Source of the DNA: Erysipelotrichaceae bacterium
GTDB lineage: Bacteria; Bacillota_I; Bacilli_A; Erysipelotrichales; Coprobacillaceae
NCBI GenBank assembly: GCA_021770925.1
Contig: JAETPY010000001.1
Location: 1-64,000 of the forward strand
DNA: 64,000 bases
Direction: 5' to 3'
Positions 34,604 through 38,854 of the stretch are shown piece after piece. The translations under genes and the position numbers were made by a program. The notes under the pieces are model-generated. The model searched no databases. It was not told where the DNA came from and worked only from the letters and a program-made list of their open reading frames with translations. Within the stretch, counting starts at the first letter, position 1. Every line of letters starts with the position of its first letter.

Positions 34604-34837
34604 ATGATGAGCAATATAGATCCAAAATTGATTGCAAGAATTAATGAGTTAGCTAAAAAGAAAAAAGATGGTATAATTACTCCCGCTGAATTGAAAGAAC
34701 AGAAAAAGTTGAGAGAAGAATATTTGAAAGCATTTAGAAATGGTTTTAAACAACAATTGATGGGAATTAAAGTAGTTGATGCTAAAGGAAATGATATAAC
34801 TCCACAGAAATTAAAGGATGAAAAATTAAAAAATTAA
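34604..34837 (+). CDS. ynzC: DUF896 (YnzC family) protein
   Basis: IARINELAKKKKDGIITPAELKEQKKLREEYLKAFRNGFKQQLMGIKVVDAKGNDITP. Confidence 0.92.
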   Translation: MMSNIDPKLIARINELAKKKKDGIITPAELKEQKKLREEYLKAFRNGFKQQLMGIKVVDAKGNDITPQKLKDEKLKN

Positions 34838-34925: not shown

Positions 34926-36902
34926 ATGGAAACGTCAAGTTTATCAATTGCAGCTATTCGTGCTCTAGGTATTGATACTATCAATAAAGCTAATTCTGGA
35001 CATCCTGGAATGGTTTTAGGTTCAGCACCAGCTGTCTATACATTATTTACTAAAGAAATGAATTTTTATCATAAACAGTCAAAGTGGTTTAATCGTGATC
35101 GATTTGTTTTAGCCTCTGGTCATGCTTCAGCATTATTATATGCTGTATTACATCTATCTGGATATCAGATTTCAATGGATGATTTAAAAAACTTTAGACA
35201 ATGGGGTTCAATAACACCAGGACATCCTGAATGTAATCTTACGGATGGTGTAGATGCTTCATCTGGACCACTTGGACAGGGAATTCCGATGGCAGCAGGA
35301 ATGGCTTTAGCTGAAAAATTTTTAGCTGCTAAATACAATCGTGAGAATTACGATATTGTTGATCACTATACATTTGCATTATGTGGTGATGGTGATATGC
35401 AAGAAGGGGTGACTTATGAAGCTGCATCACTTGCAGGACATTTGTCACTAGGAAAATTAATTGTTTTATATGATGCTAATCAGGTTACTCTTGATGGTCC
35501 TTTGTCAATGTCATTTAGTGAAGATGTAAAAAAACGATATGAAGCAATTGGATGGCAGGTAATCAATGTCAAAGATGGTAACGATATTAATGAGATTCAA
35601 AAAGCGATTCGTAAAGGTAAAAAGGAACTGTATAAACCTACTTTAATTATTGTTAATACAGTTATTGGATATGGTTCAAATAATCAGGGAACAAATAAAG
35701 TTCACGGAAGTCCATTAGGCAGAGAAGATGGAAGAAACGCAAAATTGTCTTATGGATTTGACCATGAGGAATTTTATGTACCTGAAGAAGTTTATGAGGA
35801 TTTTGCTAATAGTTGTGTTAAACGTGGTAAAAATCGTTATAATAAATGGAATCGTTTATTTAAAGATTATGAAAAAGCTTTTCCAGAATTAGCTCATGAA
35901 CTAAATAAGGCAATCGAGGGAAAATATTCTTTAGATATTGATGAAATTACTAAAAAGTATATAGCTGGATTTAGTGATGCAACAAGGAATACTTCATTAG
36001 AATTGATTCAGGAGACCGCAAGACAAAATCCTACATTTATGTCTGGAACTGCTGATTTAGCATGTTCAACTAAAACTGAGATTGCTAATGAAAAAGCTTT
36101 TAGCGTTGAAAATTATGATGGACGTAATTTAGTTTTTGGAATTCGTGAATTTGCGATGGTAGCGATGATGAACGGAATAGCTTTACATACAGGAATTAAA
36201 GTCTCTGCTGGTGGTTTTTTAGTTTTCTCTGATTATTTTAAAGCAGCTTTAAGAATGTCATGTTTAATGGAATTACCAATTATTATTCCTTTATCACATG
36301 ATTCTATTGCTGTTGGCGAAGATGGACCAACACATCAGCCGGTTGAACAATTAGCAATGCTTCGATCTTTACCTAATATTCAGGTCTTAAGACCAGCAGA
36401 TGCAATTGAAACTGCTGCAGCATGGAAGTTAGCAATCGAGTCAACTAAAAAACCAACTGCGTTGATTTTAACTAGACAAAATGTAACAACGATGGAAAAT
36501 ACTTCATGTGAAGGTGTTAGTAAAGGAGCTTATATCGTTGGTAAAGAAGTTGAACGTCTTGATGCAATAATTATTGCTACAGGTAGTGAAGTTAATCTAG
36601 CAATGAAAGCTAAAGCAGCTCTATTAAATGAGAATATTGATGTTCGTGTTATTTCTATGCCATCGATGGAATTATTTGAGGAACAAGAAGAGGCATATAA
36701 GGAATCTGTTCTTCCTCGTAATATGAGAGCACGTCTAGTGATTGAAATGGCTAGTGATTTTGGATGGCATAAATATGCTGGAATTGACGGGAGAGTAATG
36801 TCAGTAAGTACATTTGGTTCTAGTGCTCCAGCTAATGTGGTAATTGAGAATTATGGTTTTACAGTAGAAAATATTATTAAAAATATTAAAGAAGTTTTAT
36901 AA
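34926..36902 (+). CDS. tkt: Transketolase
   Basis: AIRALGIDTINKANSGHPGMVLGSAP, GDGDMQEGVTYEAASLAGHL, GEDGPTHQPVEQL. Confidence 0.96.
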   Translation: METSSLSIAAIRALGIDTINKANSGHPGMVLGSAPAVYTLFTKEMNFYHKQSKWFNRDRFVLASGHASALLYAVLHLSGYQISMDDLKNFRQWGSITPGHPECNLTDGVDASSGPLGQGIPMAAGMALAEKFLAAKYNRENYDIVDHYTFALCGDGDMQEGVTYEAASLAGHLSLGKLIVLYDANQVTLDGPLSMSFSEDVKKRYEAIGWQVINVKDGNDINEIQKAIRKGKKELYKPTLIIVNTVIGYGSNNQGTNKVHGSPLGREDGRNAKLSYGFDHEEFYVPEEVYEDFANSCVKRGKNRYNKWNRLFKDYEKAFPELAHELNKAIEGKYSLDIDEITKKYIAGFSDATRNTSLELIQETARQNPTFMSGTADLACSTKTEIANEKAFSVENYDGRNLVFGIREFAMVAMMNGIALHTGIKVSAGGFLVFSDYFKAALRMSCLMELPIIIPLSHDSIAVGEDGPTHQPVEQLAMLRSLPNIQVLRPADAIETAAAWKLAIESTKKPTALILTRQNVTTMENTSCEGVSKGAYIVGKEVERLDAIIIATGSEVNLAMKAKAALLNENIDVRVISMPSMELFEEQEEAYKESVLPRNMRARLVIEMASDFGWHKYAGIDGRVMSVSTFGSSAPANVVIENYGFTVENIIKNIKEVL

Positions 36903-36928
36903 AGTGATGATTTTCATCACTTTTTTCT
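36901..36928 (+). terminator. Terminator after tkt
   Basis: AAAGTGATGA-ttt-TCATCACTTTTTT. Confidence 0.85.
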
Positions 36929-36990
36929 TTTTAAACATATTTTGACAATTTTTATCATTTGATTTTGTTAAGCTTATAGGGGTGATAAAA

Positions 36991-37371
36991 ATGAATACAT
37001 ATAAAATATATAAATTAAATCCAAATGTTATGGATCTGTTTGAACAATATCCAGAAATAAAAGAAAAGGTTATTGAGTTAGAACCAAAAAATATTTTTTT
37101 TACTAAACAAATGGAATGCCTTTTTGGCAGTAATGAAGGAGTTAGTGATTTTATCGAGTATAAATTAAATAAACGTTATGACTATTTACGTGATAACAAT
37201 ATCCATGTTATTGATAATCAATTAACAAAAGAAAAAATAACATGTAAGGTTTTCGATTATTATATAATTATTGAAGCTGCTAAAAAAACCAATATATTCT
37301 TAGATATTTTATATCAAATTTCAAAAAGTTATGTTATAATTAATGAGCAAGCAAAAAAATTGGAGGTATAA
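36991..37371 (+). CDS. Hypothetical protein in the SirA (YneE) position between tkt and yneF
   Basis: ATG 36991 after aggggtgat; 126 aa; tkt-X-yneF order as in B. subtilis. Confidence 0.7.
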   Translation: MNTYKIYKLNPNVMDLFEQYPEIKEKVIELEPKNIFFTKQMECLFGSNEGVSDFIEYKLNKRYDYLRDNNIHVIDNQLTKEKITCKVFDYYIIIEAAKKTNIFLDILYQISKSYVIINEQAKKLEV

Positions 37372-37373
37372 AT

Positions 37374-37577
37374 ATGGTCTTAAATATAATTATAGGGGTA
37401 ATTATTGGAGCCGTTATCGGTTTCTTTGGAGCTCGTTATATGTTTAAAAAACAATTACAGAAAAATCCACCAATCAATGAAAAAATGATTCGTGCAATGT
37501 ATATGGAGATGGGTCGTAAGCCTAGTGAAGTACAAATAAAAAAAATCATGTCATCTATCATGGCACAATATAAATAA
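37374..37577 (+). CDS. yneF: UPF0154 (YneF) membrane-anchored protein
   Basis: GFFGARYMFKKQLQKNPPINEKMIRAMYMEMGRKPSEVQIKKIM. Confidence 0.93.
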   Translation: MVLNIIIGVIIGAVIGFFGARYMFKKQLQKNPPINEKMIRAMYMEMGRKPSEVQIKKIMSSIMAQYK

Positions 37578-37600: not shown

Positions 37601-38221
37601 ATGAGATTATTTATTACACGACATTCAAAAACATTGTGGAATCAAGAAAAAAGGCTTCAGGGATGGAAGGATTCTCCTTTAACAAATCAGGGAATTAAAG
37701 ATGCTTTATTATTAAAAGAACGAATTAAAACTCTATCAATTGATTATTGTTATAGCAGTCCTATCAATCGTGCAAAACAAACAAGTGAAATTTTATTTGA
37801 TCAGGTTATTTTAGACGAACGTTTAAAAGAAATGAATTTTGGCATTTATGAAGGAAAAAAAATTGAAGAGATATTGAATGATAAACAGTATGATGATTTA
37901 TGGAATCATCCTGATGACCAGGTTAGATTAACTGATGGGGAATCATATCTTGAAGTTCAAACAAGATTGAAAGATTTTATTGATGATATTTATCAAAAAC
38001 ATCCTGATAAAAATGTTTTTATTACAATTCATGGAATGTTATTTATTATTTTACATGGTTTAATGCTTAATTATAAAACTAGTGATCTAACCAAAATTAA
38101 CCAGCATGTTGTCCGTGGATGCTCACTTAGCGAGATTGAATATGATGGCAAAAGTTTTACCATCAAATATATTGGAGATGCCGCACATTTAAAAAATGAG
38201 GAAACTATAAGCTATAAATAA
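37601..38221 (+). CDS. Histidine phosphatase (phosphoglycerate mutase-like)
   Basis: MRLFITRHSKTLWNQEKRLQGWKDSPLTNQG (RH motif), SSPINRAKQT. Confidence 0.88.
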   Translation: MRLFITRHSKTLWNQEKRLQGWKDSPLTNQGIKDALLLKERIKTLSIDYCYSSPINRAKQTSEILFDQVILDERLKEMNFGIYEGKKIEEILNDKQYDDLWNHPDDQVRLTDGESYLEVQTRLKDFIDDIYQKHPDKNVFITIHGMLFIILHGLMLNYKTSDLTKINQHVVRGCSLSEIEYDGKSFTIKYIGDAAHLKNEETISYK

Positions 38222-38257: not shown

Positions 38258-38854
38258 CATCCAGCTTATTTTATTTTCTGTTCCATGCCTGATTCGTTTT
38301 AAATTTTCTCGATGACGGTAAACTAACAATGAGATTATTCCAAAAGTAGTTAATTTTCCAGCTAAAGGCATATTCAAAAATGGAATAGCTGCTAAAACTG
38401 ATAAAGAAGCTAAAACTGATGAAAGTGATACATATTTACTGATCTTTAAAACAATAAAGAAAACAACTAATGCAAGGATAGCTCCTAAAGGATTAACAGC
38501 AAAAAAATAACCAATTGCAGTTGATACTGCTTTTCCACCTTTGAAATTTGCAAAAATTGGATAACAGTGTCCTATTACACAAAATAGAGCACATATGTAA
38601 GGTAAATCTGTGTTTAATGAAAATAATGAGCATAAATATCTAGCTAGAAGCATTACTAATAAAGCTTTTGAAGCATCTAAAACAATTACTGCAATCCCAG
38701 CTTTTTTTCCTAACACTCTACCAGTATTAGTTCCACCTAAATTACCTGACCCATAATTTCGAACATCTGTTTTATAAAAAAGCTTTCCAATTACTAAAGC
38801 AAAAGGAATAGACCCATAAAGATATGCTAAAATTATTAAAATTATTGAAATCAT
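38255..38854 (-). CDS. plsY: Acyl-phosphate glycerol-3-phosphate acyltransferase
   Basis: YGSIPFALVIGKLFYKTDVRNYGSGNLGGTNTGRVLGKKAG, GHCYPIFANFKGGKAVST; ATG 38854 has SD aaggtgat. Confidence 0.94.
   Translation of the reverse strand: MISIILIILAYLYGSIPFALVIGKLFYKTDVRNYGSGNLGGTNTGRVLGKKAGIAVIVLDASKALLVMLLARYLCSLFSLNTDLPYICALFCVIGHCYPIFANFKGGKAVSTAIGYFFAVNPLGAILALVVFFIVLKISKYVSLSSVLASLSVLAAIPFLNMPLAGKLTTFGIISLLVYRHRENLKRIRHGTENKISWM

Follow-up and report, generated by a model that had tools for sequence, protein, structure and literature searches.

The 64,000-nucleotide stretch of Erysipelotrichaceae DNA analysed here (the window) carries on its forward strand a small gene that runs from an ATG at 36991 to a stop at 37371 and encodes a divergent SirA homologue of 126 aa, assigned from Pfam, predicted fold, profile comparison and co-occurrence with Spo0A. 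It lies between the transketolase gene tkt (34926–36902, forward strand, from the list of open reading frames), which forms the upstream flank of the slot, and yneF (37374–37577, forward strand; UPF0154, Pfam E 3e-29), which begins 2 nt 3' of it, and a ynzC/DUF896 gene (34604–34837; Pfam E 4.5e-29) precedes tkt. A sequence-only reading of the window had placed the frame in a ynzC-tkt-X-yneF slot, and both this gene order and the C-terminus given for the protein were confirmed. We take the order in Bacillus subtilis to be equivalent, with sirA (yneE) between tkt and yneF.

An intrinsic terminator of tkt, read from the sequence as AAGTGATGA-TTT-TCATCACTT-TTTT (36902–36926, forward strand), separates sirA from its upstream neighbor. 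Beyond it on the same strand lie TTTGACA (36941–36947), a candidate Spo0A box in reversed orientation (the opposite strand reads TGTCAAA) that doubles as a −35 hexamer, the weak −10 hexamer TAAGCT (36969–36974), exactly 21 bp past TTGACA and read as TATAAT in many relatives, and a GGGTGAT ribosome-binding site (36980–36986). The first of these elements is kept at about −50, and the ribosome-binding site is kept as GGTGAT ahead of sirA, across the three families compared here: f1, the window's own family and that of Thomasclavelia (43 genomes); f2, the other family of the same order; and f12, a second family of the same class, with genomes of roughly 0.9–1.6 Mb (~1 Mb). The uninterrupted frame is kept in all eight other searched members of Thomasclavelia, the genus of this gut bacterium, at 58–83% identity, and this conservation, together with the ribosome-binding site, the tkt terminator upstream and the gene's own promoter-like sequence, marks the frame as a gene and not a chance opening. 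sirA and yneF probably form one transcript. Farther along lies a phosphoglycerate-mutase/phosphatase-like gene (37601–38221 in the window); almost every f1 locus with sufficient flanking sequence has such a gene after yneF.

The best Pfam family for the protein is SirA (PF10747), matched at E 0.027 and 15.3 bits over nearly the full length (residues 14–123 on positions 24–132 of 140), below the curated cut-off of 26 bits; NCBIfam has no family for it. Such a cut-off is a detection threshold and not a statement about biology, so the claim of membership rests on fold, slot and profile. Among the 27 f1 relatives in the alignment built around the protein (A1), no other Pfam family comes near SirA in frequency: it is matched by 16 of them with a best E of 2.2e-4, and it is the only family matched in many of them. 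A sequence search of the PDB with the A1 profile returned nothing credible, and 4TPS, the B. subtilis SirA structure, was not recovered by sequence alone. When profiles were compared with one another, A1 aligned to the f12 SirA proteins plus the 4TPS chain at 97.8% and E 1.2e-12 over 116 columns, which is nearly the whole length. The C-terminus of SirA quoted in the sequence-only reading departs from 4TPS_A at a single residue (EVLKK versus EVLRK).

An AlphaFold2 model of the protein, built with A1, reached a pLDDT of 84.9 and a pTM of 0.75, and its elements run β1-α1-α2-α3-α4-β2-β3-β4-β5-α5-β6. The published order for SirA is β1-α1-α2-α3-α4-β2-β3-β4-β5-α5-β6-β7 (PMC4285326), and every element of that fold except β7 is thus present in the model. 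A structural comparison with SirA had been proposed from the sequence, and here Foldseek placed 4TPS_A SirA first in the PDB (E 9.1e-6, probability 1.00, TM 0.71/0.65) as the sole significant match, with the second at E 0.2 and probability 0.20.

The slot is conserved across f1, where yneF lies downstream in 30 of 30 loci and tkt upstream in 23 of 30. The gene is present in 32 of the 43 genomes and Spo0A in 30 of 43, and the two coincide closely: all 30 genomes with Spo0A have the gene, against 2 of the 13 that lack Spo0A (Fisher P 1.4e-8 with genomes as units and 7e-4 with genera, values that serve only as guides because the genomes are related). The two exceptions, G009 and G019, are likely assembly gaps, given that the former is 69% complete and that dnaA was also not found in the latter. 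Nine f1 genomes lacking Spo0A were inspected; in six, the tkt-yneF gap measures only about 90–140 bases and the slot is empty, and in the remaining three the neighborhood is rearranged, without a small open reading frame. The sequence-only reading turned in part on the gene not being kept in non-sporulating relatives, and the gene does indeed track Spo0A. As a separate observation, every Thomasclavelia genome searched encodes at least one extra Spo0A_C protein adjoining spo0A on the opposite strand (for example G000:C159:37880–38179 on the forward strand, beside spo0A at 38397–38708 on the reverse).

Two further families carry SirA in a related setting. Of 395 genomes of the class searched with the Pfam SirA model, 29 scored above its cut-off, all of them in f12, and a wider draw on the phylum with the same model added no family beyond f12. 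In the 30 f12 loci that were read, yneF is downstream in 26 and tkt upstream in 18, and Spo0A is present in 41 of 41 f12 genomes with SirA. The window SirA and those of f12 share slot, the company of Spo0A and the layout of the promoter, in which many f12 loci carry TTCGACA, the exact 0A core; the f12 proteins differ in scoring mostly above the Pfam cut-off and in keeping the β7 region with its DYFWL motif.

In f2 only the yneF flank of the slot is conserved. Weak single-protein matches in this family were discarded as chance fragments, and the true f2 proteins were found by reading the slot before yneF. There, in 11 of 11 Spo0A-positive genomes inspected (loci L141–L144, L147–L150, L152, L154 and L156), the open reading frame just before yneF encodes a protein of 108–129 aa (one frame of 141 aa) without a family, and it is absent from all four Spo0A-negative f2 genomes inspected. 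An alignment of these slot proteins (A3) matched the A1 profile at 96.6% and E 5.5e-10, and one of them, modeled at a pLDDT of 92.2, again found 4TPS first with Foldseek (E 8.8e-6, probability 1.00). Searched across the order with f1 left aside, the A3 profile gave strong matches in 19 of 27 f2 genomes with Spo0A, eight of which lay outside the set used to build it, and in 0 of the remaining 78 genomes.

The sirA genes of f1, f12 and f2 share an upstream TTYGACA element, placed roughly 50 bases from the start and followed, after 21 bp, by a hexamer resembling TATAAT. The 0A core is TGTCGAA (PMC3485338), and its exact reverse complement, TTCGACA, is the form often seen in f12 and f2; the f1 element TTTGACA departs from it at one contacted base. 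When the −35 and −10 hexamers were required jointly to match at no fewer than 10 of 12 positions, a spacing of 21 was found at 21 of 29 f1, 15 of 29 f12 and 7 of 11 f2 loci, against shuffle expectations of 0.8, 0.7 and 0.2, and the same scoring at a spacing of 17, the sigma-A norm, returned 0, 0 and 1. In f1 genomes lacking sirA, yneF itself stands behind a promoter with a spacing of 17 in six of six. The B. subtilis spoIIG and spoIIE promoters are Spo0A-activated sigma-A promoters with spacers of 21–22 bp. The conserved TTYGACA-N21-TATAAT arrangement supports sirA expression under putative Spo0A~P control. The window's own copy, with its poorer −10 (TAAGCT), falls outside the strict pattern, and its TTTGACA reads as a degenerate 0A box and equally as an ordinary −35.

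Four genomes were scanned for TTYGACA-N21-TATAAT. Eight matches resulted, in clear excess over a reversed-pattern control only in G039, and the matches with a ribosome-binding site right before a gene were only those of sirA and of an open reading frame upstream of sigE, each in both G012 and G039. The frame directly upstream of sigE (L161 1552–2274; L164 1533–2072, reverse-complemented locus) is by position SpoIIGA; neither Pfam nor NCBIfam returned a SpoIIGA family match for it. The absence of spoIIGA from Erysipelotrichales is implied by earlier work (PMC10868615), and may be a failure of detection.

The Foldseek alignment shows only 16% identity to B. subtilis SirA, and the protein on its own scores below the Pfam threshold, as would be expected of an orphan frame whose likeness to SirA is fortuitous. 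However, 4TPS is the only PDB structure with an E below 0.001, a result repeated with the independent f2 model, and chance would have to account as well for the profile match and for a slot and promoter common to the relatives, which makes an unrelated protein scarcely credible. It is also conceivable that the gene encodes a general replication regulator of vegetative cells with no tie to sporulation, since the promoter includes a perfect TTGACA from which vegetative transcription would be possible. Such a role is very improbable: sirA and Spo0A are missing together in eight f1 genera, the strong f2-profile matches in the rest of the order are likewise confined to Spo0A-positive genomes, and the promoter keeps a spacing of 21, not 17, in three families, whereas the sirA-less genomes place yneF behind a 17-bp one.

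The analysis established homology, the predicted fold, the slot, co-occurrence with Spo0A and the conserved promoter, and the identification as a divergent SirA made in the sequence-only reading is backed by the fold, by Spo0A and by the Spo0A-box promoter. By analogy, we infer that the window SirA would act on DnaA as it does in B. subtilis, where SirA is made in dependence on Spo0A~P and places α1–α3 on DnaA domain I, so that recruitment of DnaD and of the helicase is blocked (PMC4285326, PMC10201431). A sigma-A promoter of this kind should be weak without an activator because of its 21-bp spacer. On the strength of the conserved promoter, commitment to sporulation would bring Spo0A~P to the reversed 0A box lying over the −35 element and would turn sirA on. 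If the B. subtilis mechanism applies, the helical face formed by α1–α3 would dock on DnaA domain I and recruitment of the helicase loader would be blocked; no new round of replication would begin, and two chromosomes would be kept, one each for mother cell and spore.

The partner has diverged as well. The core contacts examined were F14, Y18, Q48 and I52 of SirA and T26, W27, N47 and F49 of DnaA. A single-sequence comparison, itself weak, pairs Q48 with Q40 of the window protein and I52 with its L44. Conservation of the published contacts is incomplete, given that DnaA Asn47, the partner of SirA Gln48, is Tyr, Phe or another residue in f1 and Met in f12, and that W27 is changed in f1. Invariance of Gln48 was considered and set aside: it is retained in most of f1, and the aligned position differs in f12. 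One might then suppose that a Spo0A-induced protein of SirA fold has shifted its target off DnaA to another replication or division protein, and it would fit such a shift that A50 is changed along with N47 and W27 and that Pfam DnaA_N failed to recognize domain I in 21 of 21 f1 genomes searched, with and without SirA (L089, L085 and L080 are examples of diverged N-termini), although Pfam still recognizes the domain in 10 of 10 f12 genomes. Yet slot, promoter, fold and the tie to Spo0A are all retained, Thomasclavelia DnaA still has F49, the residue that inserts into the SirA pocket, the SirA glutamine has its counterpart in Q40, and co-evolution of SirA with DnaA accounts for the changes. A new target is for these reasons unlikely, and we favor co-evolution of both sides of the interface over it.

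Taken as a Spo0A~P-induced DnaA inhibitor, the window gene is in our estimate (probability about 0.8) the orthologue of Bacillus sirA, diverged almost past recognition by sequence. With B. subtilis SirA (YneE, PF10747, 4TPS; PMC4285326) the protein has in common its fold, order of strands and helices, size class and tkt-yneF position, as well as restriction to genomes with Spo0A and predicted control by Spo0A~P. It differs in being 126 rather than 148 aa long, in lacking the C-terminal β7, in its sub-threshold Pfam score and in a partner DnaA domain I that has diverged too in Thomasclavelia. The activators HobA and DiaA contact DnaA domain I on the face that SirA uses (PMC4285326), a binding site that they would share with the window SirA; they have a different fold, are tetrameric and activate instead of inhibiting, and no match to either was found here.

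SirA was described with only "orthologues in Bacilli", the relatives shown being those of Bacillus (PMC4285326), and its range has been given as "most bacilli, no clostridia" (PMC3533761). The Erysipelotrichales protein adds to the SirA family a new member that has diverged strongly and whose gene has a conserved promoter of the Spo0A type, and the SirA brake appears to be older than those Bacillus relatives and to reach well beyond them. We put at even odds the broader proposition that SirA is an ancestral sporulation part of the branch that holds Bacillus, Erysipelotrichales and small-genome gut lineages, masked because it and DnaA domain I have diverged rapidly together, and that the Erysipelotrichales interface has been rebuilt. 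If so, SirA-DnaA pairs would be a series of inhibitor-initiator complexes that nature has re-wired, and such fast-evolving pairs would be material for studying how protein interfaces change. For the Erysipelotrichales themselves, the finding provides a readable Spo0A-type promoter, and sirA is a possible marker of the ability to sporulate in uncultured gut lineages. The distribution of the gene suggests that the block on re-initiation is an old component of sporulation in this branch, retained even in very reduced genomes and lost along with Spo0A.
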